A DNA stretch of 64,000 nucleotides from Daphnia carinata (lineage: Eukaryota; Arthropoda; Branchiopoda; Diplostraca; Daphniidae). The notes beneath the pieces were generated by a model. The model saw only the letters and a program-made list of their open reading frames with translations. It did not search any database and was not told where the DNA came from. A program made the position numbers and the translations under genes. Within the stretch, counting starts at the first letter, position 1. Every line of letters starts with the position of its first letter. This document shows, piece by piece, positions 1 to 47,638 of the stretch. The stretch is from positions 9,765,534-9,829,533 of the forward strand of contig NC_081331.1 of assembly GCF_022539665.2 (NCBI RefSeq), given 5' to 3'.

Positions 1-122
1 ACATAAGTGTGACTCGGGGGCGTGCATCGAAGACAACTGCGTCTCAATGTAGGCCGCTGGCGGGATCCTTGGCAACGCAACGCGAAGCGAAGTTCCTCGC
101 CCATCTCTGAACAGAGCGATTG
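1..122 (-). CDS. Gene A exon A18: cytoplasmic tail, cut by window edge
   Basis: After the acceptor ending CATAG the frame reads [20 protein letters not shown], then [10 protein letters not shown], and stays open to base 1. It aligns with gene B QSLCTEMAEEFCFAVRCRGS, and the motif resembles the membrane-proximal tail of vertebrate kainate receptors. The stop codon and 3' UTR lie outside the window. Confidence 0.88.
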
Positions 123-3100
123 CTATGCATAGAGAGAAAAAAAATGGAACGTGGGTATTACACAGATAGAACAAGAAATCACCAATTGAAAGACAAGTGC
201 GCAAAAGACAAGGTCCTCGTTTGAATTTCGCGGAATTTTTGGGGGGCGATGAAAACAAATGAAATGTACGTAGGGGAAAGTGACTGTTGCTGAAAGGATG
301 TGAAAGCGAGACGACCAACTGTTGGTCTGAGCCGTTCATCGCAGTAATTGAAATGGAGCTTAAAATTATAGCTTGGTTTTATACCTTCTCTTGCTGGGCG
401 TTGCGTTTCGAGTTCCAGCAAAACTCCAGTATGGCTACAACGATAGCCATGGCCAGCCCGCACAGCAGGACAACAAATACGCCGCCTGTCATGTGGTTGC
501 GAATTTCCCCAAATGGCAAATCGTTCGCATCGCCAGAGAAATGCGGGGCGTAATCCGGTTGGAAACGGACGAGCGATCGGACGTCCGGAGAAATGCATAG
601 ATAGAGAGCAAGGAACCAGACAATCGATTGTTAGAAAGAGCAAAGGAAAAACGGTCGTTTGCACAAAAAAGAAGTTGAAAGAGAAAGGCTGTTTTTTATT
701 TGATTTTCAAATAGAAGAAGAGACTGACCGATATTTTCAACGCCCAAGGCACTGGCTTTCGACTCTTTATTCTTATCGTCTCGGTTGCAGACGTCGCCCG
801 TGTCCTTCCACCACTATTTGTTGATTTGATTGCAAAAATGTAAACGAATAATTAATTTATTAATTAAGGTAATGGGCGAGGATGTGACTAAACATTGTTG
901 GCACTTATTTGTATCATAAAAAGAAACCGTTTTTATTTTTGGCAACTCATGTGAATAAAAATAAAAACAAATTGAAAAATAAAGAAATCGTGAAGAGCCG
1001 CATCGCTCCTTTAATCATACCTTGTTGTATAGTAGGTGAATGGAGCCTTTCTCTTGCAGTTCCAAAATGGCCAACGAAATTCGATCCCGCCAAGGCGACC
1101 CTGTTAATTGCCAAAACAAGAGAAAACGTAAAAACGATTTGAATGAAAATGGGTTTGGCGACAGGCTAGTGCCAAACCAAGCGAGTCGGCTTATTTTGCT
1201 TTTTTACGTCCATGACAAAAAAACATTGAAAATTAAGATAAAAATTGATGTCGTAGATTAAGGACAGACCTTTCGGTGTTCCAATGCCGTAGCCTTTGGA
1301 GTCGAGGAGACCCCCGATTTGGGTCAAGTTGCAATTGCGCTGGACGACGTAGTCGAGGGTAGTCGACTCCATCAGAAAGGCAAAATTGCCTTCCATTACG
1401 CGCTTCGTGCCTTCCTCGTACGTCGAAACGAAGACGGACGGCTTCTTGCTCTCCATGTAACGCCACATTTTCTGGTATGTCTCGATCCGAGAATCCTGAT
1501 TTCATATACGACATCATCAAAAACATCGATTTATAAAACAATTTTTTTTTTTAATCTTAAAAGCTATACACAAAAAAACATTGACGGACGTTCAAGGTTC
1601 CGCGTTTAGAAGGCCATTGGGGGTGAAAAAATAAAAAGGGAAAACGATTCAAAAGAGCTTCACTCTCGCTGTCGTTTTATTATTATTTTTTTCTTCTGTC
1701 GACTTGCGAAGAAGAAGAAGAAAAATGGAATGACTCGGCAAAGAAGTGACGCGTCAGTAGAAACTGGGTTATCCCTTAAAAGGTCATCATTTTTAACTAA
1801 CATTTTACAGCTTTTGATGTAACAAAAGAGGGAGGAAAGCCAGTTGGACGGGCTTGAGTGCTCATCCGTTCGGATGAGACCGGTCCTGCCCTTGAGATCA
1901 GGTGATATTTACACACACACACAAAGAGAGAAAACAAAAAAAAAAAAGCTATAAAAGTTTCCCATACAGCGTGATGCCCATTTTAATGAAGCTGCCACCA
2001 TAGAAAGACGAGCAAAGTCGTGAAAAAAAAAAAACCCGAAGAGAAAGTGAAAGGGATGGTATAATTAATGGGAATATACTTTTTTTAGAGGAAAAGAAAA
2101 TGGTAATAAAGTAAATATATATATACTCGAAAGAAAGTCATGGTGGATCCTGCGTCGAGCGTGCCGTAAGAAATTTCGCTCTGGTCGGCCAAGTCCTCGA
2201 CCGAGTCGATAGGCGCAATCATTCGTTCTACGGTGAGGAAGGCCGCCAGATTGGCCGTGTACGACGAGATAATGATCAGCGTGAAGAACCACCAAATGCC
2301 GCCGACGATCCTCGTTGATGCCGCCTGTTTAGTCACGCACGACACGCGACCCAGACGCAAAGAAGAATCAAAGTAACACGACTATTAGCGTCATTTCTCT
2401 CAGCTTATGATTATGAGAATTGATTGGGTTTTTTTTTTTTGCGTCAGCATTGTTTGTCCGGTTGTTGCGGGATGGTTAGGTGGGATGATGGATGAAGGAA
2501 ATTCTTCTTTTTTTTTTGCCATTTCTTAGCGCATTAATTGTTGAGTGTTTTAAAAATTCGAAAATTGCGCATAATCGTTTCAAAGCTGCCACCGAGAAAG
2601 ACGTTATTGCACGCACTGCGTTTCATCGCTAAACACAAACATACAGAGAAAATGAAGAAGGAGAGAAGGACTTAGACGGGGAGTGAAAGTTTCAGTTAAA
2701 AAAAAAATAATAATAATGAATAAATACAAAGAAGAAGAGGCTGAAAGAATCCCCACGCTTCCTGACTTTCATGCGTCGCTCCCAGTTTAGGGACCGAAAA
2801 AAGAAACATCACGTAAGCAATACAACGCACGACACAAGACACGAACGCAGACAAACGGGAGAACACGAAAAAATTGTCGATGTATTAAAAAATTCGAAAG
2901 TTAGGAAAAGAAAAAAAAAAATAAAGAAAAAGGAAAAGAAAAATAAAATAAATAATTATTGATTCACAACGATCACCAACAAAGGCCACTATTGATATTC
3001 AACAAGCCAATGGAATTCGTAAAAAAAAAAAATATGCATTATTTTAAGGGAGGTAGTGGGGGCATGAGAAATAGGGGATGGATTCAGCGGGTTTACCAAG

Positions 3101-6100
3101 TCAATCCCGACGGCTCGTATGCAAAATTTTGCGGTCAAAAAAGCGGAACTGCCAGTGTACGAAAATGTTGATGGGAAAAATTAAAGCAAAAATGGGGCAT
3201 AATCTACAGCTGCACATACTCGCCTGGACAGGTGACTTTTTGTTAGGTAATTTTTATGTTACGTGTGTGTGTGGTTTGAAAAAAAAAAGAAATGGCTTTT
3301 TGGTCTTTCTTGGTGACAGATGGAACGACTTCGGACCAATTTGCGTACTGGCCACTAAAGCATACTATTGGCTCGAAAAACAACAGAAGAAGAACGCGAT
3401 AGGGTTCGAACAGCATATTAGGGTCAATTTCGGGATTGAAGGTAGATATCAATTAAGAATAACAGAATATTAAGAAAAGGTAAAAAATATAGCGAGGTAG
3501 GTCGGGGTTGGAATGTGTACGCACTAGCTCAAATGAATTACTTGCCAAGATGGTTTCGCTTGAAACAATCTTGTCTTGGATGAATGAATAAGAACAATGT
3601 CTCATATTCACATTCCAGTTTGTTACAGACTAGCAGTTGATTTCATCTCTTCAAATGCACGAAAATTTTGCTTGACGTGAATCGCATACGAGAACAAGGT
3701 GTAGGTGAGGTTTATCAAATAAAATCAACTTAATGCAAATAAAATGAAATTATTGAACAGAATTTTAAAAAAGAAAGAAAACTAAATCGGAAACGGCCCG
3801 TGAAGAAGAAAAATGAACGGAGCGGCCAATGAGCCAGCGAGAATTCGGTCCTTTTGCAGATCGAAAAGAATACCTTGGGATTGAGATCTGATCCTTGTTG
3901 CATGAGAGTGCCGATGGTGAACCAGAAACTGTTGGCCAGCGAGAAGTCGTTGCTGCTGGCCAGGGTGGCATGCTCGCTATCGAACAATGCGTCTGTATTG
4001 TGCGGCTGTTGCAGAATCCGGTCGATACCGCCAATGCTGCCGGACAGGTAGTGGTGGCAGTGGTGACACCGGCTGCCCACTCCGCTCCCGTTCACATTGT
4101 CGTGCCATTCGTAAGGCGTGAAGCGGGCCACCACCCACATGGAGAGCGAGACTAGGACGTAGGCCAGCAACAAGAAGAGCCAAATCTCCACGGCCAGTGG
4201 ATTCATAAAAGAGAACAACCGCGTCGGAGTCGGCGTCGGAACCTGATCACATTCGCATACAACTTGTTTGTTTTGTGTCTCATTTTAACATTTAAGTTGC
4301 TTTTTTTAATAATCGCTGTAACGTTCCGACACTGTACCGCATGGATTCTGAACTCAATCGCATCTTGCATTTCACCCAATTTAAATAAAATAGGATAAAT
4401 AAAAGTAGATTTTGATGTTTAGCTCTAAAAAAAAAAATAAAGTGAGGCCATCGTCTTGGGGGCAGCTTTTGAAACGTTCCATTTCGGATAGAAAGCAATG
4501 GCAATATTTCTATTATTTGGCAGGCTGATTGTTGCGATGGTCGGACAGAGAGAGATTGGCATTGAAGAGGATAAAAAAGAAAGAGGACAGGAATTGAAGC
4601 GGTAGGCTGCTTGAAGAGGGTTTGTGATTTGTCGTTTATAGACCTTGGGATTGAGTCCTGATCCTTGACGGAGGAAAGTGCCAGTAATGAACCAGAAACT
4701 GTTGGAGATGGAGAACTGATTCTCGACCACGTCGCTGTCAGCGTTGCAAGGGTGAGGGTTGTTCCATTCGTAAGGCGAGAAGCGCGCCATGACAAATAGC
4801 GTGAAACTGACGAGGATGTAGGCCGCCATGACGTACAGCCAAATCTCCACCGCCAGTGGGTTCATAAAGGAAAAGAGACGCGTCGGCTGGCTGGTCGGGA
4901 TCTATTCACGACACCCATTTCATTATGTAAATCGCTCTTCATCATTTTTTTTTTCTCTAAGATTCATGTTCTACTCTTTCTGCTTTGAATGGGGGGGGAC
5001 ATAACAATGGGAGTTGAATAAACACACAGATTCTGATTTATTTTTTGTTTTTTGTTTTTTTTTCAAAAAGAAGTTGGTGTTACGAATGAAAGGACCTTTA
5101 ATCAGCTACATTGAAGACTACCACTGTGGTCCCACTTTGTTCGTCTTTATTCGTTCAACCAACTTTAAAAGAACTTTCACTTTGCGTTTGTTGACTTGTT
5201 TGAAGACGGTCCCGAAAAAAGTGCGGTCAAGGCGAACCGGGAGAAGATATATAATTTTTTTTTTATCATGTTTACTACGAGCTCTATAGTGCGAAGGCCA
5301 TCCTTATATCAGCAATCAAAAGACAGAGCCGAAAAATATTCAAATGTCACTAAGAAAACGTATGACATCAGCGGCAGGTTTTTTATTTTTCCATGTTTCT
5401 CCTCTTTCGCTATTGATTCTCTTAGGTCCGCTCAAAGGACTGGCCTATTCTTTTTTATTTATAGACGTATTTCTCAGACGACCACTAAGATTTGTTGCAT
5501 CGATAGCTAGACGATGAAATGTCGATAGGTTTAGTAAAACCTTTTTCTTTTTTTTATTACTACTGCCAGTAAAAAAAGATTGAGAAATAGAGACGAGTGA
5601 TGGCTCGCAAAACCCTGCGAAACGATGCTACTTTCTTAGTTGTGAAATCGAAAACGATGTCGTCAAACTATCAATTGGAGAGGCTTTTTGGAAAAAATAC
5701 GAAAACAGTATTTTGAATCGTAAAAAAATGAAAGAATGAACCAACCTTGAACAAGATGCTAATGCCGAGGTTCATAAAAGGCTTCGTAAAATCGATGACC
5801 ATTTCACGGGCGTAGTTGATCGTCATCGATCCGACGGCCAGATCAGCTTTCTGTAATTTGAATTGACGTCATGACTTTTTTTTTTTTTCTTTTAACGAAT
5901 TCAAATGTGGCCGCATTATTGACAGCGTCGCAACACTTGAAATGTGAATGCATTAAAAAAGAACAATGAGTAACGGCACCTTTTCGAGAATCTGGCGGAC
6001 GATGCCGTTCCATTCACCCGTGTCGGGATCTAACGCTCCGTATTTCTTGTCGGGTACCAGCTCAATGACGTAATTGAAACCGACCATTCCTGTAAAATAA

Positions 6101-9100
6101 TAATAATAATAATAATAATAAAAAATACAGGAATTTTCCTTGTGGTGAAATCTGTTTGTGGTTGGAATCAAGTCATGCATAAATCATTGCGAATTGGGAT
6201 TGGCAATAAAAATGATGGCGAAATCTCATACCAGCAATGGCTTTGAGTAGGTCGATGCAGAATCCCTCGTAGCGGTCGTTGCCGGTCAGATTACGTTCCG
6301 ATCGAACCATCACGTACGGCATTTCCTGATGCGACGCATCAACCCGGTAAGTACAGAAACATTTAAAGAAAAAAGAAAAGAAGGAAGCATTAGATAAAAC
6401 GAGACGCTATTTTTGCTACCGTAACATCAAGCGGAGCATCATGGAATATATCAATCGTTTACTGATGACGGTTTCAACTCCATCAGAGCGGACGACCATT
6501 AAAAGATTGGCAGCATTGAAACTTTATTTTTTTTTTCTTTGTTAGCTACATGATCGAGCAAAACAAACGAGGGCCTTTCCTTTTTTTTTGTTCCTTATTC
6601 TTGTTTGTTATTTTTGTTGTTGATCGGTTTGAAGCCCAAGGATCTAGCATCCAATTCAAGTTCCCCTTCCATTGCCTATCCAACTATTTTTGAAAAAGGA
6701 GAAACCTACACGAAGTGAGAGTATAAAGGGGAAAAAAAAGGGGGAACGTAAACACGATCTGTAATTAAGATCTCTCTCCGCGTGATTCTTTTTGCTGCTG
6801 ATGCAGCTGAGCTTTCTCCCTTTACTCCCTAAAGGAGAGAAAAGAGGCACGATCCGTTCTTTAAAGCAATCTTGTAAACACAGATCAACATCGTCCCAAT
6901 TCGTTTTCGCTCGGCCGAATCGAGCGCGTCTACAGGTGAGTCCAAAGACATCGGGTTAAATTAGAAAAAGGCCTTTCTTTCTGGATTGAATCCATTCCTC
7001 AATGCTATTAACTTGTTTTTTTTTTTTTAATTTTATAAATAAAACCATCAGCCAATAAGCCTAAACAGCGTCATCCCTTTATGGAAATGCGCGTGAACTG
7101 ATGGGGCCGGGAAAACGAATCAACGCGTTCAAACGACGTGTTTTTACCTCGTTGGTCATGACGATAAGAGTGATGTTGGGCGTACTGCCTTCGTAAAAGG
7201 CCACCGGATCGGTAATGTTGAGTCCCATCTGACCGTTCCACTCGCCAACTTTCGTCAGATTCTCCCGCTTCAGCTTGAGCAAGTCCAGCGTGATATTGGA
7301 GCGTCGCCCTTCCTTGAATCGGACGGGTCCCGTCAGTCCGACAAATTCCACCTATTAAATTTTTTTTTTGTAGGAAAAGCGTGATTGTTGTTCAGTACAT
7401 CAGGATGCGATTAATTTAAAAAAGAATGGGAGGGACAATACTAATGTTGAGCTATTCATCGCCTGCCCAATAGGAACGTATAGCCATAAATAAGAAATGT
7501 TGCACCTTATCAGTAAACACAACACACAGACACGCGCACAGCTGATGTATAGATCAAACGGTATAAATCAAAGGCTACTATAGCAATCTGAGTTGCGATC
7601 CATCTATTTTTCTTTCTAGTTTATATTGTGTGCCAGTGGATGTACGTAGCGATATATATGATTTCATAGCTACCGTGTTGATGTAATTGAAGAGCGACGA
7701 TCCGTCATTCCACGGCTGCTCGATATCGCACGAGAGGTTGGCCAGCCTCAGTGCTGTGCCCCGATCCAGGGCGGCCAGACCGTGAGCCAACGCCATAACG
7801 CTGTCGTAGACTAGAGCTGGCTCTGCCTGTTTATCGACCATAGTGACACAATCAGTTGAATATCAAGCGCTCGCAAAGAAAAACAAAATTGGGGAAAAGC
7901 TGTGAATTGTTTCAATAAATGGCCTACCTGGATGATGTTCGATTTATTGAGAATGCTTTGGCCGATCGGCTGGAACTTCTCCATATCTCTCAGAAGAAGC
8001 CGCGTAAAGTTACTGTCAGCGTCGACGATGCGGAACGCCGAAATGTTGACAAAGTTGTACTTGAAATCTTCCAAGTCAAACGTTTCCAAATCCTTTGAAA
8101 GAGAAAGTCCCCACGAAGAAGAAGAAAATGTAATGAAATTGATGGCAATAGAATAAAAACAATGACGTTCACAGTGTTCCATTACCGGCGAAGCGAAGAG
8201 GTAGTGATACTGATAGTCGTTCATTTGTAGTTGCAGAACCTGGCGTGAACAAGTTGTGCCACAAATTGCGTGTTAGAATGTCCGACCGCACACGTCGTCA
8301 TCATTATGAAAATCGAGAGGAGAAAAGAAGAAACAGAAGAGCAACGATGAATTGCAATATAGCTGTGTCATTAACATATTTATGCAGCATATATCACTGT
8401 CGTGTTCTTTTTATTAACATATTTGGCGAGCGGCAAGGTCTCTTTGTGTCGTGCAAAATGGAGAGTCAAGTCAAGCCGTTACACCAGCTACGCGCAGATT
8501 TATTCATTTATTATGAAGTTGTTGATGGCCGTGTTCCCCTTCTTTCCCCAGTTGAGGTGCAGGGGGGCTGAAAGAACGAAAATGTGTGTATATATACGGT
8601 GCGGAAAAAGAAAAAAAAAGGCCGTACAAATCTACGTTGGGCTATTAGTGCCGTCGTAAAGTCAAGAATGTGCACGTTGGCGGTCCCCAGTCATTTTTCA
8701 TATTTCCCGCTCTCTCTCTCTCTCTTTCTCCTTTCTTTTCTTTTTTCACGCAAGAAGGAAAAAAAAGGAGGGCGTCAAGGAGACACTCGACTCCCCAAAA
8801 ACTTTAGAACACAAAGACAAGAGAACACGTCCTCCCCCCCCCCTTCCTTTGATAATTTGGCCCGCGTTCACGTGATTTGGGTCTCGGCCGAGGGCATCGT
8901 TAAAAACACAGAAAAAAATCGTTGGTGTGGCGGTTCGTGCGGTCGTCACTTGTGTCGGAAACCTCCCCCTCCACCCCCCCCCCAACAAAAAAAAAAAAAA
9001 ATTCGTGGAACAAAGGGCGTTGGGTAACATCCATAACGTTCTAACTAGTGCTGGTGTTCTTCGACCTTCCCTCCCGCACACAGCAAAGATGTGAAAGATG

Positions 9101-12100
9101 CCTCTAGCAAGTCGGGACGAGGGTGGACAAACGTCGTTACAAACAGATTTATGTCGCGGGCGGCTTTTTTGCTTTCTCTGAGGTTCGCTGGAGAGCAGAA
9201 GAATAAAAAGAATTTTTTTTTTTTCCTCCAAGCGCATTGGTATTACAATCATCTCCCCATATAAGTCCCCCACCCCCCCATCTGATGGTGTCGCCACAAC
9301 TCGAAATGGGGAACTTTTACTGATTTGTGGAGGGGGGTCTTCGATCTCCATTGGGCTTGTATAATAGACGAAGATATAGTGTTCCATGAAGAGAGCGGCT
9401 TCTCTTTTTATGTTTAGGCGTATCGATGCGAACGATGGACGTCCGTGAGTAACAAATGAACGGACTTTCGGGGGGGGGGGGGAGCTTGTTGTACTTCTGT
9501 TTTCACGATGTGTATTTTTTTTATTTGTATGGAACTTACGGCTCTGAAGAAGGTGTGGACGTGCTCCGTCCGCGTATCGACGATGATGTTGTTGATGTCT
9601 CGTTGCTTGATCTCGCGCAGCACTTGGCGGTAAGTGCTCACCGTTCCTTGGCGGATGTACACCTCCATTTTGCTGGTGGGCGGCGATCGTACCAAATCCT
9701 GCAGTCGTACCAAACCTGACGTAACACACCAACAAAAGCAAAGATGTTGTAGTTTTAGTTTGTCTGTTGAAACGAGCAATTGGCGAAATAAAAGAAAAAA
9801 AAAAGAAAAGAAAACAACAACTCGTTAAACGTAGAACTTCTTGTGATTTAGAAGCGCGTTGCAATCGACGTAATTGAATTGCACTTTTGAAATGTCGTGA
9901 CACGTTGCAAAAACCGAAAGTCTCGCCGCAAACCCGTCGAGGGAGGAAGCATTTAGGTACAAAACCCATTGAGTTCATTGCAGTCAGTTTCGGGAAAAAA
10001 GAAGTGAAAGGAAACTGTTGATCCCTCGTGAAAAAAAAATGACGCAGTGTGTTCACGCAAGATTTCTTCCCGCTCCTCCTCCCTCCCTTCCGAAAAAATT
10101 GGATCAACCCTATTTTCGTTTCATTTTCGTTCTTCTTCTATTTGCTTGTTGTATGCACACTTCAACATTTGAATGGCGGTGTGATGCCACAAAACTCCCC
10201 CCCCCCCCTCATCTTCGCTCCAGCCCAAAGTAAATAAAAACCTATCGAAAAGAAAAATATATAATAAAATAAACAGATTGAGAAACAAAAGTGAAGCAAC
10301 GTATGTGAAGGATATACTGTTGCCCAGACAGCAAGTAAAATGGGAAAACGGGAGTAAATAGACCTACATGAAAGATGATGATAGGAAAGCCTTTCTATAT
10401 CCAATAAAGGAAACAGAGCTGGATGCTGGGTATAGCAAAAGCACCGCTCACAGAGAAATTCTCATATCGCTTTTTTTTTTTGCTGTTATACATAAATCTA
10501 AATATATACTCTATATAGTAACAGCTAGGAGAAAATGAATTTTCCTTTTATTTATTATTATTATTATTTTTTTTTTTGTCTTCCTTCCCGTTTAGCCGGA
10601 AGCTCGCCAAAGCATGAAAGGATCTCTGGATGAAGAGAGAAAACAGCACAATTCGATCGGTATATACATATATAGAGAGAGATATGCCTATAGTAATATT
10701 ATATCGCCTCCGGCACCGGATATTTCAGGGCTCTCCGACCCTTTTTTTTTTTTTTTTTCATCGGATTTATGCGATATCGGTAGCCACCTCATTCTTTCGT
10801 TTCGATCTATAAGAAAGTCAGGAATAAGAAAAAGTCTAGACGAAGAATAAAAAAAAAAACACGTAATAACGTAACGCAACAAAGTGCATTACGAGTAGAC
10901 GAAGACCCTTTACAAAAAAAAAAAAAAAAAAAAAAAAACCCTGACAAAATAAACATTTAGAAAATAAATAAATAAAAAATTATTAGCTGGAGTTCCGACC
11001 CCTTTTCCTTGGCCACATGCCAGCTGTGTTATTGTATATATATATACAGTAGTCCCTATTATTATTGGTAGGCAATGAATCGAGACTCGAGTTAAGTGCT
11101 GGCCAACATTTGGCAAATTTCACATGGAACTCTCTCACATCATAACGTGCTAGTACTTTTCTTCTTCTTTTTGAAAGGCAATATCTGCAGTGGCCCATTT
11201 TAGTTTGTCTACAGATTTCTTCGGACCGCATTCGTCCGACTTTTTTCTAAAGCATAAAGTCTTTTGACATCAACAAAGAAGCAAAAAATGGTGCAATGTG
11301 GGCCAGTTGTCGCCCATTGCGCTATGGAAACTTGTTCGTCATCTCGGGTTCATCTTTTTTTTCTTTTCCTGTCATCAAAAAGAAACTGAAAGGGCACCTT
11401 GTCGCATGAACAAAAGCGAACAAAAAAACAAATAAAGCGGGGCAAAACAATATGACGCAAGTTGACGTGCTCTTTTTTTTTTTTTTGTTTTTATCGAATT
11501 AAAAATGAAAAGGGAGAGTACACGCCAAATAGGATTTTCTTGAAACTGGCACCGATATGCTTTGGGTCGCAGGGTGTGCGACAAATCAATACTATTTATC
11601 GGCTATGGTTGTCTGGACGTCGTCAGTGTTAAACTTAAAAATATCGAGCCAAAGTTTTGTTCTGTTTTTTTTCTTGGAAATGCTTTGCTTTGCGCTGTCA
11701 GATATGCAAATTTTTTGCGTGTGCATTTTATTGTTACCTCCTTCATCTTCGTAGATGATGGCCACTTTGGTCCAGTTGAGGAAGCGCATCAGGTCCTTGT
11801 AAGCGGCGTTGAGGACCTCTTGCGATGGATGCAAATTGATGGAAAGCTCGTTACGGGCGCCCGTCCGCGACTCCAAATCCAGTCGCGTCTCCAGGTGCGG
11901 AATATCGAGCGCGTCGCAGATGGACTGGACGTGCGGTCCGAGCAGCGGATCCGACGGCCCGAAAATGGCCTGCACTCCAAAGTCGATCTGCTTGCAGGCT
12001 ATCGTCAATTGAATAAAAAAAAAAAGAATGGAAAATTAAACGTTATCATATGAAATTAAATAATTCGTAAGTATAAATATCTGTGGTTTAATAGCCATAT

Positions 12101-15100
12101 TTATTTATCGATGATAAAAATGGAAATTTTTGGTTTCACCTTGATCTAGTGAAACAATTCATTGCCCATCGTCATGAAAACATGCGGGTTATGTAGAGCA
12201 GAACATGTAATCTAAGGTGTATTATCACGAAATCGAGATCTATACTCCGGCGTTCAAGGTTTTCACACCCTTTTTGAACGCATCAATAATCATAGCGTTT
12301 CGATCTTGTTGCATAGACAATTTGGGCCATGCACTCGACCGAAACATACCACAACTATTTCTCAATTTCTTTCTTTTTTTTTTTTTTTTATAAACCAAAT
12401 TTGATGATGCTTGAAAGAAAGAGAAATCAAGTGGTCATCTTCAAGGTTGTCGACGCAATTAAAATGTTTTCTTTTTTTTTTTTTTTTTTATCCCATGTAA
12501 AAAAAAAAAGAGAGAGAGAAAGAAAGAGAGAAAAGAACTTCTGAATGTTATTAGATGTTTTCGGGGGCTAACCGGCCGGCCTTGGTTCGTGAAAGTGACG
12601 AACAGTTGGAGGTCACCGGTTTGAACTAGACACTATGTGATGTGAGTTCTTCTTTAATAATGCGCTCTTAGAAAATTTTACGGGTCCGGTCATTAAAAAC
12701 AAGGCCACCAGCTCTTTTTTGTTCCTCATCTTTTCTTCGTCTCCCTCTTGAACTGTGGCCCTTTAAAAGTAAGAAGAAAAAAAAACGGGCATTGTCAAAG
12801 TTCACGATCATATCCGTTTCCCTTTATGATCGATGACGAGTAAACGCATATCAGATCTTTGTTGCATCCCCCCTCCTTTCCCCTCCTTCGTTACGTACCC
12901 CGGCTTTCTTCTACATTTCCTTCTTTTCGATCCTTATCGTACCGGCTCGCATCCGAAAGGAGTTTCTTGATCCTTATTGACGTTTTATAATGAAACCGAC
13001 CTTTTTCTTCTTCTTCTTGCTAAATCGAGATTTGTCATTTATGTAAGCGAAAATCGAAACGTGTCCAAAGCTAAAGTCGAAAGTTATTATCGCCAAGCCT
13101 TTTGTCTTCATTTATACAACTCGAGGCTTGTGTGGGATATGTTTTCTATATATAGATATATATATCAATGCAGATAGACGTTGAATAAAAGAAAGTTGTC
13201 TGACTCGTATACCGGGAATAACTAGGCGATCTATTGCATTCAAGGTGCTTTGCAGCAATTGTTGTGCCACGCTTCCGTTTGATTCGGTCAGAGAGGAGGG
13301 TCGCATCTTCTATGGAAACAACCGTGACACATCGTTTTCCCCATTATTGCACAAGGATGTGTTCACTTGGCCGCATCCATTCACGCCCTTTTCCTCAATT
13401 GTTACACGGACTGTACACGAGCCATTGCCTGTCAATGGAAATGGATCCCTCCCGGTCGCACAATACGTCAGATCAATCATCTCTTATATACGAATGAGCC
13501 TTTTGCTTTCTTTTTTTTTTTTATTGGCTTTTCGATCTTAGCTCTTTAGTGATACGAAAGAAGAGCCTCTCTACGATATTCTACATCTGTTTCAATCAAT
13601 TTTTGGTTTGGTATTAATGATAAAAAATTTAATAATATGCACGAGCTTATTCATTTTAGTGGCCTGGTGAGATGAATAGCATCAAATATTACGTGAAACA
13701 AAAGCTCTGGTCCCGGTCTGCCCCTCATTCAGCTCCCCCTCTTTTTTTTTTTTTAATTATTAAAATCGCGTATTTATGACATCGCCTGGTGCATATCGCC
13801 GTTAAGTCTGGCTTTATTATAGCTGAGACATCTTCATTAAGAATTCTAAGGAAATAACGGAAATAGACAAAAGGGTGAATGACGTAATAGCTCTCATTAA
13901 AGCGACAGGCTCAAGGCCCGCAAAAACAGGCCGTTAATCAACTTTGTCACTTGGTTCGTCTTTAAAAAAAAAATAATAAAATGTGGGGTTTAATTAATCC
14001 TTTTTCTCATAGTTTGTAGCCTCTCAGCCTTGGAAATAAATGACGAAATGGGGGGGGGGTGTGCTGACTTTATATCTCACCACCTGATTTTATACAACCC
14101 CATCCCTCCCAGAATGAACGAGTTTTGCGTGATGGGTGGCGTGCGTGCTCAAGCGGATACAATTTTCGGGGATCCACTGCGCAGCGATATATTTGATTGT
14201 CTCTGGAACGCAGAGTGGTGCTGCTTTCAAGGATCCAATCTGATCTCTGAGCACACACACACCCATTTTTAGATACTACCGCAAAAAAAAAAATTGCGAA
14301 CGAACAGTTGGAAGTAAAAACAAAAATCAAGTGGTCGCGTAACAGGAAAGAATATCACGTTTAAAAAAAAAAGGAGGGGGGGGGCGAAAAAAAAAACAGA
14401 TCAAAATATCTGAAAAAGAAAAGAGAAAGTTGTTGCCAAATACTTTTTTTTTTTTGATGATATCATGATGTAAGATTTTTTTTTTATTTAAGGTGGCTAC
14501 GTGCGAGCGTGCTCGTGAGAGTCCCTCAATTGGAAAAAAAGGGGGCAAAGGAAAGAAAGAAAAACAGAATTGACTCGGACAATAAAGACTTGTGTCCAGC
14601 TTCCCGATAAGGTCCCACACATCGTCTCTCAGGGCCGATGAATCCGGGACCTGATCTGTTTTCCCTTTCTTTTTATTATTATTATTATTCTAGGATTCTG
14701 TTGGGGAGGAACTATACGTGCGTCTGTGAGGGACCTTTTTCGTTGTGTGACAGGGTAGAAACATTTTGATTTAAAAAAAGCAAAACAAAAAAAAAAAAAG
14801 GTTACTGTCCTCTTTTTTCTGTTTCTTGACACATTAGATATAGGCCGAGAAGAACATCGATACGAAGCGGCCATCGGAGTGGACAAAAGAACATCCAGAC
14901 GACACAAGAAAAAAAAAAGGCGGAAGGGTTTAATACAAAAAAAAAAAAAAAAAAAGAAATGTCTTATTCTGTGTTTGTCGGCACATCTCTTTCTCGTTTG
15001 TTTACAGAGTCTTATATAGCCGATGGACAATTTCGTTTTTTTTTTTCGATTATCCGACATGTCCTGATGCCTAGCACTCGTGTTCGCTACAGAGGACACT

Positions 15101-18100
15101 GGATTTACTTGTTTCCCAATATCATCCGGATCAAAAATACAAACGCACTAAAGAAATATCTTGCGTGACAGCCTTCAGTTATTCTTGGTCAGTAGTTTTA
15201 AACTTATCACAAAAAAAAAAAAAAGGGCTGTTAAGGTTTTTATACTACGATTACGCGCCGTTTACGGCGAGTTATCCTGGAGGCTGTGTACATTTGCATG
15301 CGTCCATGCAAATATGCAATCCCTGCGGGGCGATATATATTTGTTAGGCGTATTAAACATTTCATCTATCGCATAACTGGCTACCGTTTTTGGCCGATAC
15401 CGTCGACATTTTTTTGAGTTAAGTCCGGCTATATAAGAAACGCGTGATAGTGAAAACAAAAAAAAAACAAAAATGCTGCATGAAATATTTGGGTAGATCC
15501 TTTTATCTTGTTGGGTTCTTCCCCTCCCCCCCCCCCCTTTTTTTTTTTCATCCTCACATTGAAGATGCCTATTGATTAATCAAAAGAATGATAAGAAGCC
15601 CAACACGCTGAGAAAATAGATGAAGGAATGACGATTACACGTTATAGAATAAATAAACATTCTTTTTTCTTCTATTCCCCGTTTGATTATTTACTTCTTC
15701 AGAGATCCAAAGAAAATGTGGAGGACAACACAGAACGCTGCGAGCGGAGAGTGTGAGAATGATGGCATACGTGCGTTGTATATGCCTCTCACTTTTTTTT
15801 TTCTTTCTACTTCGTGATGATTGGAGAAAGTGGTGGCTCTCTCGGTAGATGACTTCTTAAACTTCTGTAGTCAAGATACACACACACCATTTGGTATTCG
15901 AGTGAAAGGCCGCAAAAAAAAAAAAATGGAAGAAAAGAAAAAAAAATGTAAAGAAAGAAGGAGAGCTGCAATAATATTAAATTGTATACATAAATGGATA
16001 TTCGTTTTCCGTTTGTCGCTTTGAGGCTGGGCCCTAAAGGTGGAACTCGGCCAGTCGATAAAAACGAAACGATTTTCGTCCCCCTTTTTTAAATCTGGAT
16101 GATTTATTTATTTTTAAAGCAAAGTGATTTGTGGCTTTTTGGCGAGAGAAAGCAAACAAAAAAAAAAACATGGACTTCCACAAACGATTCCGTATAGTGC
16201 GGTCCTTTTCAGCCACAGCCATACGAACTGCACAACAACTTGTGAAAGCGTCTTTCTTTCGTTATTTTTTCCCCGATGCCGTTGAAAATGGTTAACACAA
16301 CGCCTGGCCATGTATATAAACGTGCAGTTTTCCTTGTACTCCCACGGACTGCGAGGCAAAACTGTCAATACAAGCGGGAAAAACCTGAGCTAATATGCAA
16401 ATTCAATTTTAATTTACGGATAGATTTAGCCCGTAGGTTATTTTGAAGAAGAATAGATGACCAAATAAAATGAAGGTAATAAAAAAATATTAGAAAAAAC
16501 GAACGTTTGTAGCATAACAGCCATTTAATATGCAAAACAGGAAAATTTTAACCATCTTTTCTCCGGATGGGCATTCAAAAGAGTATGGATCATCATGACC
16601 TGAAAAAAAAAAATGAAGCCTACAAACTTTGATCCCTTGTGTAGAGACACCCACAGGGTTCTCCGTATAATTCAATAGCGGATGAGGCTTTTGTTGGTTT
16701 ATGGCACACACACCTTTCCCCGTTTTCTCTCCTCGTAGTTGGGATTCTCTTTGCCGTTGGCGTTCCATTATTCACGCTCAATGTACGGAGGAGTTTAAAC
16801 ATTAGTACGGAGAAAGAAGAGAGTGTCCTGGTTCCTCTCTAGACTCTTCTTTGCCCTCCGTTCGGGCAATCATCATTATAATTTCTTGACTGGAATATGG
16901 TAGCTACTTTCACGCTAGGATCGCACTAGTTCTATAAGGATTAACTATTCATTTATTATTAAATTTTTTTCTTTTGGAACTTCCTTGTAATAATGAATTA
17001 GTGCAGTCATTAACCACCTTCACATGACTGGACGAGAAGGTCGTGATATTCGCTGAAAATTAATTATGTACCCCGTCCCAGGGTATTCAGACGTCTGAAT
17101 CTTATAAGAATTTTTACTAATAAATCGTTGGCGAAAAATAACACGTGATGAATTGAATGATGGGAAATCTATGGGAGCTTGTCACGTAGAGGTCTCATTA
17201 ACAAAGTCGGACGATAGTTGACTGTTGATAGTCCATAAATATAAGTAATAGCTATTTGAAGGATTTCAAAGAAAATCAGACGATCCGTGTGGCATAATGT
17301 TGGTTAAAAAAAAATGTGTTAGAACTGGATACGGTGGCGCTCCGTTTCAAGGAGATCAAAAAGGAAATGAAATGTTGTTCATGATTTTTGTGTGTGTTGG
17401 CAGTCACGAGTTTCCGGTCCGACTCAACAGTGCTCTTCTCGATATGCAAATCTCCCTTTAAAAGATTTCTTTTTTTTTTTCGAGGTCCAAAAAAAGGACA
17501 CATTCCTATTTTGATTGATTGTGACGGATACGTTACAGTACTACCTAACGGTATAACTTTGAATAATTTTTGCCCCCCCCCCCAAGAAAAAAAAAAAAGA
17601 AACAAACAAAAAATGCAGTGTCCCGCTTTTGCATTTCTATTGCGGTCCACGTGAACGAATCGCTCGCTTGACCGTAAGAGAAGGGAAACCAAACGTTTCA
17701 CATATCTCTCGTTTTTCAACAGTGCCTCTTTCGTGCTGTGTAGGCCTTGTTTTCCATTGGCCATCTCAATCTGGAGAAGATAAAGCCAAACACGACACAG
17801 ACACGACAGAATTTAAAGAGAGAGAGAGCGGCAATCGACGCATTCATTACTAAAAACCCGAGAAAAAACCCGAAAGACAGATCGTTCATGGCTACACATT
17901 TGCTTTTAACTAATCGGCCGAGTGCTGGTCACGATGGAAAGGGCATTTTATTTCTTTTTTTTTTTTTCGCGGAAAATCCTCGGCTATGTTTATGCCAATA
18001 GAGAAAATAGGTGTGGAGACGAAGACTGAACGTGACTAGTATTTATACAAATTAGTTCTTGGCCACTGGTAACAACAGAAAGACAATTTTCTTTGTCCAA

Positions 18101-21100
18101 CCATTTATTTTCTGGCCTTTCTCTTTCGTGTTAAACGAGCAACAATAGGGCAGTAGAGGAAAGAGTTTTTTTTTTAACATTGCTGCTTTACCTGCATTTG
18201 CCCCTTTTTTTTTAATGGTATACAAAAATTTGAATGAGATGAGCGCGAAGAGAAACTTGGCCGGGCACGCACACGCCATTGGCTTATTTTTATTTTATTT
18301 TTTTTTTATTATTCCTCCTTTTTAACCCACGCGATTTCACCGAGCGCAAAGTGCACTATTTTGTCCAAATGGAACAGCATAAGTTATTATAATAGGCACG
18401 CGGAAAACGAAAGAAAGAGAACTCGGAAAATGTCATTCGTCATGGGATCGGCGAACTGGAGTTTGTGTCTCATGTTTTCCCGCATATCGCCAATAATTGC
18501 GTGCGAGCTACGCTCTCTCTTTGACAAGCGCACTTCATAAGCTGTATCTGATGTCGACATTTGCATATCATGTACCAACTGAGGATCGTGTACGTTTTTT
18601 GATGTTTCGCCTTCGAGTTATTAACGTCACGCTGTTGTTAGCGTTTATTTGTTTATCGCTTTGTGTTTTGTGTAGCAGCGGAGCCGATTGGAATTGAGGG
18701 ATGATATTACGGGAGAAATTGTACCTTTCTTGGACGTGCGAAAGCTGTCGTCCCTCGGCACGTACTGAATGTCGTACACGAGCGTCGTGTTGGGCAAAAT
18801 GGTGCGTTCGCGATTCAGCCGGTAGACGGCGTACTTGAAGGCCAACTCGGCGCTGCCGTCCTTCTGGTCCTCTCTGAAGATACCACCTGTTATTCCGATC
18901 ACGTTTTTTTTTTTTTTTTTCGTTGTTTTGACATTTACACGTGTAAAAAGGGAGGAGAAAAAAGAAAGCACATCATTAGCATTTCTTTGCGAAAGACAAA
19001 AAAACTAAACATAATAAACAAAATAAATGGACAAGAAGAAATGTATGAAAAAAAAAAAAAAAGATGAGAATGATAAGGGCTCGATAACAACCACCCGCTG
19101 CCGATCGTCTTTGTGCTGTGTCTTGTAATGATGCTTCTATTCCGTACATGGAACAAATGAATATTTATGAATCGATTGACTTGAGCAGTTGTATCAATCT
19201 GTGGCGTCCCCTTTTTCTTGCTGCTTTTGAGCCTCGTTTTGTTTTAGTTGGTTTTTCCCTTTTTTTTTTTTTTTTTTTTACATCATGGAAAGTTTTAGCG
19301 GCAGAAGGCCAATGAAGTTTTGAATATCTTATTTTTTTTTTTTACAGTTTATAACCAGTGGGTTTTATACGTCAATCTTTTGGACTTTTATAACATCTTC
19401 TTTCAAGAATGGACGTCCAAACTTGGCCGTTACGAAACGCTAAAGTTACGAAATCGTCAACAACCAGTTTTTTAAAAGGGTTGTATCTAAAAAAATGTTG
19501 AATCTGCTTCGCTCCGTTTAGTTTGTCGACAATGCGGCGTTACTTAAAATGAAAATACGTTCCCAGGGTAACATTGCGCAGTCCGTCCTGAACGGCAGAA
19601 ACGTACCCTACGTCTTTTACGAAATAAAATGGGGATAATAAAAGTAAAAAAAACGGACTGATAAAAGCCTACAGTTGAAGCAGGAACGATTGCGTCATAT
19701 TTCCCAGAGCGAGGGGTTAACCTAAAATTCCAGTTAAAGTCTCGTATAGCCTCGTACCCAATTCGAATTGTCTTTTTTTTTTTTTCTTCTTAAATGACAA
19801 AAGAGGGAAAAGAACTTGTCTCATCGGTCCATATTTTTTTTATCGTAAATACTCGTTTTCCTGTCAAGGTGAAGAATTCGGGTACGTTTTGTTGATCCAA
19901 TTCTGATGGGCATTAACATTTTATCGACGCGTGCCCTACTATCTTAGATTTTTACTTTCATTCATCGCTTTGTGCTGCAGTGAAGAGAGAAGTTAGTTCT
20001 TGTGCCTATACGTGGTTTCGCATAATTCTCGTGGCAAAGTTCCTGCTGATAGAACATCTGTTCCTTTGTTTATGCATGCGGCGTGATAAGTTTTATTTGA
20101 ACGTCTACCTTAAAAAAAAACGGTACTCAATCAGATGGCAAAAATAAAAAGGGCCCGAAAACAGAAAGTTGCTGATTTCTGTCCAAGAAGTTTTGAATAA
20201 ATTCATCGAGGGCTATTGCGTATATAATTTTGTGATTCTTTTGTTTGTTTAAAAAATATTATTTATTGCGACTTCAATACTTTTTTTTCGAAGGGGGGAG
20301 GGAATCATTACATATCGTCTGTTTAACCTGCGCTCACAATTGAAAATTTAGGTGAAGTGGCAAAAGCTTTTTGGTTCTGAGAAAACAAATGCAAAAGCTG
20401 CTCCCAAGTGAAGTGTATAATGAAGTATCACGGTTACACGAATAAGCAAAATCAACTATTCTTCTTCTTCTAAGAAATCCATTTACGGCGGTATAAATTG
20501 ACACGAATATGTTCCCATTCTCGGAATACCTTTATTATAAAGAATCGAAAGCATGTAAAACGCAATGACCTGATCAGCTATTAGCGAGGTCTTTGCTCCT
20601 ACAGAGAAAAAAAAAGGAAAAGAGATTGGATTAAAGTCGAAGGTGTGTCAAGTGAATGTCTGGCTTTCACTCAAAATAGAGCCATTACTACCGTTTCATT
20701 TCTTTTTCTGATGCGGTACTCTGTAATTGCTAAATTTTGCTTTTAACACGACGAGCACATTATCACATGACACCCTTGCGATTCGCAATTCATTCCCTGG
20801 ATTTGCGAAGGTGTCTTTCAAAATGTAGGGACTTTAAATATATAACGATAGTATAAAGTCATTCGGGTCGTATCAGAATTCTCATATAACCAGTTACACT
20901 CAGACAGGTAGCAGACAAGTAGAACTGGGCTGCTAGTACCTGCGTATATGGAATTAAAAGCTTTGCCTTTCCTTAGCGAATTGGATATTGAATTTGACGA
21001 ATAACCAATTCAGGGTCTTATAAAACAAGGAAACTAAACTTTCGAAAAAATGACGAATAGAATCACGATTGGCAAAAAATAATGAAATCGTAAAAAAAAA

Positions 21101-37499: not shown

Positions 37500-47638
<10,139 letters not shown>

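Follow-up and report, generated by a model that had tools for sequence, protein, structure and literature searches.

How RNA editing can control the entry of calcium through glutamate receptors is classically illustrated by the Q/R site of the pore loop. Gene A of Daphnia carinata raises the question of whether the same choice could instead be made by splicing, for it contains two neighboring pore exons, one of which encodes glutamine at this site and the other arginine. The gene lies on the minus strand of the window that we analyzed, a stretch of 64,000 nucleotides (C1:9765534-9829533 of the 108 Mb genome). We believe, with a confidence of roughly two in three, that alternative splicing of an exon duplicated in tandem selects the kainate-type pore of gene A and in so doing sets the Q/R residue. 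Here, we describe the exon pair, trace it among the relatives of gene A and weigh the other roles that could be assigned to it.

The pore exons of gene A

To judge from its sequence, gene A encodes a subunit of a kainate-type ionotropic glutamate receptor. Its predicted R isoform (P0111) and the Q isoform of a relative (P0124) match four iGluR Pfam families, and both present the domain order ATD, S1, M1-pore-M3, S2 with Lig_chan; the gate motif SYTANLAAF is encoded by exon 2324-2127 and the pore can be aligned to solved GluK and GluA chains. The layout of the gene within the window is as follows.

8186..23601, minus strand: 5' exons (signal peptide, amino-terminal domain); approximate, from open frames matching predicted P0111
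5980..8092, minus strand: exons for the end of the amino-terminal domain and S1 (8092-7928, 7826-7674, 7351-7148, 6325-6232, 6089-5980)
5746..5850, minus strand: common upstream exon, end of S1, ...GISILFK; donor AAG/gttggt
4644..4901, minus strand: R pore exon, 258 nt, 86 codons; pre-M1, M1, linker and pore loop; Q/R codon CGT
4243..4643, minus strand: intron separating the R and Q exons, 401 nt
3874..4242, minus strand: Q pore exon, 369 nt, 123 codons; longer M1-pore linker; Q/R codon CAA
2127..2324, minus strand: common downstream exon, M3, SYTANLAAF, start of S2
1..1495, minus strand: exons for the remaining S2, M4 and the start of the C-terminus (1495-1270, 1100-1021, 813-729, 485-385 and 122-1, the last of which runs off the window)

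The R and Q exons are tandem and homologous, both in phase 0/0, and both are bounded by GT-AG sites (acceptor ...gtgaatag and donor AAG/gtctat for the R exon; acceptor ...gtgatcag and donor AAG/gtattc for the Q exon). The initial annotation had described two adjacent exons covering pre-M1, M1 and pore, with these phases, intact splice sites and the codons CAA and CGT, and its coordinates and sequence statements were right; the positions 4643 and 5745 that it gave are first intron bases, the exon edges being 4644 and 5746. In the genome, Pfam Lig_chan matched the R exon (window about 4638-4850, E 6.7e-17) as well as the Q exon (window about 3868-4191, E 1.0e-11) and these matches, taken together with those of the whole isoforms to the iGluR families, indicate that the pair is not a product of chance.

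The pore of the R exon reads CTC CGT CAA GGA TCA GGA (LRQGSG), that of the Q exon ATG CAA CAA GGA TCA GAT (MQQGSD). Alignment with the GluK2 chains of solved structures places the arginine of gene A on the Q/R-site column. As the initial annotation had proposed, this arginine is written in the genome, as CGT, and does not arise by changing a glutamine codon at the RNA level; the products of A-to-I editing at the glutamine codons CAA and CAG are CGA and CGG, never CGT. Its statement that the R exon has lost the acidic residue of QGSD likewise holds, since the residue at +4 is glycine in the R exon and aspartate in the Q exon.

Occurrence and conservation of the kainate-type pair

Two protein searches, the first with the R-exon region (best 120 of 5580 matches) and the second yielding the best 120 of 7975, together gave 148 distinct proteins (P0003-P0150). 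The paired pore exons that the initial annotation had suggested looking for in orthologs are there: judged by the pore motif, R and Q copies occur together in 115 of the 148 related predicted proteins among the matches listed, although models with both copies rank at the top of such searches and these fractions are therefore not frequencies. Each of the 115 has one R and one Q motif, and the R copy precedes the Q copy in every one. The other 33 listed proteins comprise 16 with a single Q copy, 11 with a single R copy, four with an R copy and a partial second M1, one (Acanthoscelides) with an R copy and a motif-less second copy, and one (Bombyx) with two R copies. In the last of these, P0005 from Bombyx mandarina, the two R copies are identical and there is no Q copy, which may be real or an artefact of the model; in P0119 from Acanthoscelides obtectus, the second pore copy that follows the R copy reads SFWFGVAPLLSQKSSIYPK.

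Proteins with both copies come, among the matches listed, from insects, decapods, a barnacle, an isopod, Artemia and Daphnia; the species include Penaeus, Cherax, Scylla, Armadillidium, Artemia, Pollicipes, Schistocerca, Tribolium, Diprion and many Drosophila. All 31 Drosophila records among the matches listed (including six isoforms of D. takahashii) contain both, in searches where single-form Drosophila proteins would rank below the best 120. One of these two-copy proteins, P0090 of D. busckii, is named CG11155. The pair is carried by two paralogous kainate-type genes, type 1, which resembles gene A, and type 2, the R exon of which begins with VPTDKES in most of those examined.

For a comparison of the exons themselves, we aligned 27 R and 32 Q exons, taken from 27 genes hand-picked from the 148 for their spread and supplemented by five extra Q exons; Armadillidium and a Cloeon fragment were left uncut for this exon set, and Penaeus and Zootermopsis were left out of the gene tree. 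Under the cut-offs used, five columns tell the 27 R from the 32 Q exons. The arginine of the site and the leucine before it had served in picking the R exons, but the other three columns had not; these read, R versus Q, I/V versus T/A, T/A versus I/V/L and G versus D/E, the last at +4, where glycine is found in 27/27 R exons and an acidic residue (D/E) in 32/32 Q exons of the hand-picked alignment. Two of the separating columns are pore-helix positions.

The two exons have been conserved to different degrees. Over 86 columns, with the linker trimmed, the mean pairwise identity in type 1 (n=15) is 90.8% for the R exon and 66.7% for the Q exon, and in type 2 (n=12) the order is reversed, with 87.4% for the Q exon and 65.4% for the R exon. 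Between Daphnia (P0016) and Drosophila, the R exon is 88% and the Q exon 49% identical. When gene A is compared exon by exon with D. subobscura, the R exon, at 88%, ranks behind only exons f and k (89% each), and the Q exon, with its linker included, stands at 44%. The imbalance within type 1 might suggest that subunits are R by default, serving as partners that conduct poorly or block calcium, and that the Q exon is minor or decaying. The predicted isoform of gene A in D. carinata is indeed R (P0111), with no separate Q-only record seen among the matches listed; the second copy of Acanthoscelides P0119 has no Q motif; and channels with four arginines conduct poorly (PMC12226733). Nevertheless, MQQGSD is retained in all 15 aligned type-1 Q exons and in type 2 it is the Q exon that is the better conserved, so that we hold a default role for the R isoform to be quite improbable.

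That the R exon should be a dead or mis-assembled copy with no function is far less credible still. Although the evidence on D. carinata comes from predicted proteins and genes, this reading is contradicted by the intact frame and splice sites, by the 88% identity to the Drosophila exon and the recurrence of the exon in many species, and by an R-only record of cDNA-like character. This record, P0112, comprises 727 codons (2181 nt) on a contig of 2236 nt, which is too short to accommodate introns, and the R-only splice form that it represents is thus probably RNA; its R exon is 99% identical to that of gene A, and the other common exons differ by 3-22% each. P0147, a type-2-like Q protein of 934 codons on 2963 nt, is probably also RNA-derived. 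The collapse of two separate loci in the assembly, about which the initial annotation had cautioned, is unlikely, since the copies differ widely and proteins on other contigs, P0016 included, carry both.

With respect to the origin of the pair, the R exons of the two paralogs cluster together in the exon tree, albeit weakly (0.69), and in a gene tree built from outside the pore region gene B of Daphnia, the neighbor of gene A in the window, groups with type 2 (0.94). Gene B showed no R exon, either in its own sequence or in a genome search that scored the best candidates, and we read this as loss or non-gain. Although not proven, a single exon duplication that predated the split of the two genes and was followed by loss in gene B fits these phylogenies best; two independent duplications in the kainate paralogs are disfavored by the weak clustering (0.69) of the R exons of both. 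Best-candidate searches of the D. carinata genome for further R exons returned those of gene A and the AMPA-type pair described below alone, and the site is glutamine in gene B and in the genes of C7 and C9.

Gene B has peculiarities of its own. On the plus strand of the window, at 44943-45146 and 45364-45567, it has tandem homologous exons for the S1 part of the ligand-binding region, each of 204 nt and in phase 0, which could possibly provide an alternative choice of ligand-binding lobe. By eye, its intron 46202-46264 lies just 5' of the Q/R codon, and the Q/R site falls on the short exon 46265-46298.

Single and double inclusion, and a second pair in an AMPA-type gene

What might keep the two exons of gene A apart? 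Joining them preserves the reading frame, and the 401-nt intron between them makes steric exclusion unlikely; from the sequence, then, neither frame nor steric crowding appears to enforce exclusion. Competition between RNA pairings of the three introns that flank the R and Q exons was considered as a mechanism and rejected: the longest complementary runs (exact, with at least 4 G/C) are of 9, 8 and 9 nt, within the range of 10 local shuffles per intron pair (6-9, 8-13 and 7-11), though as this is one sequence the result does not amount to evidence of absence. There are 52 inverted repeats, and most of the 25 longest are A/T tracts. The low pyrimidine content of the R acceptor (0.29) is shared by the acceptors of exons c (0.24) and k (0.35) of gene A and is thus not informative.

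If both exons were included, the subunit translated from the mRNA would have its M1-pore unit twice and be unable to form a normal pore, and the pair could function as an on/off switch that leads to fewer receptors or to a dominant action. Such a role would be in keeping with the in-frame junction and with the two-copy proteins, 115 of the 148 and 31 of the 31 Drosophila records among the matches listed; the latter weaken the interpretation as an exclusive choice and strengthen that of a switch. One of the 115, Clastoptera P0057, is without a contig, and records of this type presumably derive from transcriptomes. Against this, the ranking of the searches favors double models, which are a frequent product of gene prediction, and single-R (11) and single-Q (16) forms do exist among the 148. 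On one contig of 7,255,302 nt, R-only (P0116, P0117), Q-only (P0124) and double (P0016) forms are all predicted. A switch would, furthermore, leave the conserved R-and-G signature unexplained, and it is at odds with the AMPA-type gene considered next, which goes out of frame when both exons are present. We therefore consider an on/off role unlikely. The view of the initial annotation that the pair is a splicing-based alternative to editing survives in part; the genomic arginine, the homologous alternatives and the conservation of the pair speak for it, but the occurrence of both copies in frame in 115 of the 148 does not.

This AMPA-type gene of the same genome, on C5 (L009), has tandem exons at 4170-4528 of the locus (359 nt, ...GSLLRAGNVTVPR) and at 4723-5141 (419 nt, ...GAFMQQGSDISPR). 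The pair starts further upstream within S1 than the kainate pair and ends in a different phase, which argues for a separate origin. Both lengths leave a remainder of 2, so that an mRNA with both exons would be out of frame, and by this arithmetic the reading frame does enforce exon choice in the AMPA-type gene. The annotation of the gene in D. carinata lists the R isoform (P0151) separately from the Q isoform (P0254); the start of P0156, another AMPA-type R protein, may be a retained intron.

Among the 120 AMPA-type relatives listed, LLRAGNV occurs in five (D. carinata, D. pulex, D. magna twice and one further contig) and lysine (LLKAGSV) in one, an isoform of Artemia; the rest read Q (104), H (3), L (2), S (1) or, in a leech, R (1), and three did not fit the pore pattern. 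The lysine form of Artemia (P0157) and a glutamine form (P0204) do not differ on either side of the exon, and are consequently alternative forms of one gene. The leech protein (Hirudo, P0169) has its arginine in the motif MRRGCD, the histidines at the site are found in P0160, P0163 and P0164 from decapods and krill, and P0155, a predicted protein of the tick Amblyomma americanum, has two Q pores.

On balance, we favor the broader view that in pancrustaceans the Q/R choice became fixed in duplicated exons on two or more occasions, in an ancestral kainate-type gene before the split of its paralogs and in a branchiopod AMPA-type gene (with lysine in Artemia), and that splicing here does what editing does in vertebrates and is coupled with the change at +4.

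Permeability, precedents and meaning

In the mechanism that we envisage for gene A, use of the Q exon would yield the combination of glutamine (Q/R site) and aspartate (+4), and use of the R exon that of arginine and glycine. If vertebrate and mutated channels are a guide, subunits made with the R exon should have a lower calcium permeability, and the loss of the acid at +4 should weaken polyamine block. The function of the site is dealt with in three sources (PMC8257547, PMC6307864, PMC12226733). There, arginine at the Q/R site of vertebrate receptors abolishes calcium permeability (PMC8257547), and in a placozoan receptor a change of the +4 aspartate gave more linear currents, which the authors ascribe to a loss of polyamine block, and arginine at the Q/R site raised rectification (PMC12226733). 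This last result implies that arginine alone need not decrease polyamine block. Because pure R homomers conduct poorly, R subunits would most likely act in heteromers with Q subunits. For gene A we infer a regulated exclusive choice, heteromers and a change in permeability and, given the conserved pair, a functional Q/R choice seems likely in insects and crustaceans.

Several known systems resemble that of gene A. The editing of vertebrate GluA2, GluK1 and GluK2 shares with it the pore position, the Q-to-R outcome and the class of receptor (PMC8257547), but the arginine of gene A is genomic and lies on a separate exon that also alters M1, the linker, the pore helix and +4. The flip/flop exons of AMPA receptors are likewise a mutually exclusive pair in an ionotropic glutamate receptor (PMC8257547), the exclusivity in gene A being predicted; flip/flop, however, is located where S2 ends and has its effect on gating, whereas the pair of gene A swaps M1 and the pore loop. 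Tandem homologous alternative exons are also known from arthropod Dscam, myosin heavy chain and cac, but unlike gene A these are not glutamate receptors. Drosophila CG11155 and its arthropod orthologs carry the same R and Q copies as gene A. Hatje and Kollmar reportedly treated the mutually exclusive exons of Drosophila in 2013, and CG11155 may be among them. The accessible portions of the literature on CG11155 gave no account of the R/Q pair, and neither “glutamate” nor “CG11155” occurs in the main text of the Kassiopeia paper. Within the open-licence literature, to which the survey was confined (subscription papers and fly databases were outside its scope), no description of arthropod Q/R exon pairs was found and, in the parts of it that were accessible, no case of a mutually exclusive exon switching a Q/R site. 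Mutually exclusive exons are known and so is the Q/R switch; what seems new is their combination.

Editing and exon choice offer a natural contrast. Editing alters one residue, and exon choice alters the site, +4, M1 and the linker together; the coupled change of the site and of the polyamine residue at +4 could not be made by a single editing event. If our reading is correct, this is a splicing counterpart of the editing switch, conserved between Daphnia and Drosophila and rebuilt in an AMPA-type gene, which would mean that selection acts on the Q/R choice as such, by whichever mechanism it is delivered. CG11155 provides a named fly gene in which kainate-type permeability becomes testable, and the many insects and crustaceans that carry the pair may set the calcium permeability of their receptors by splicing.
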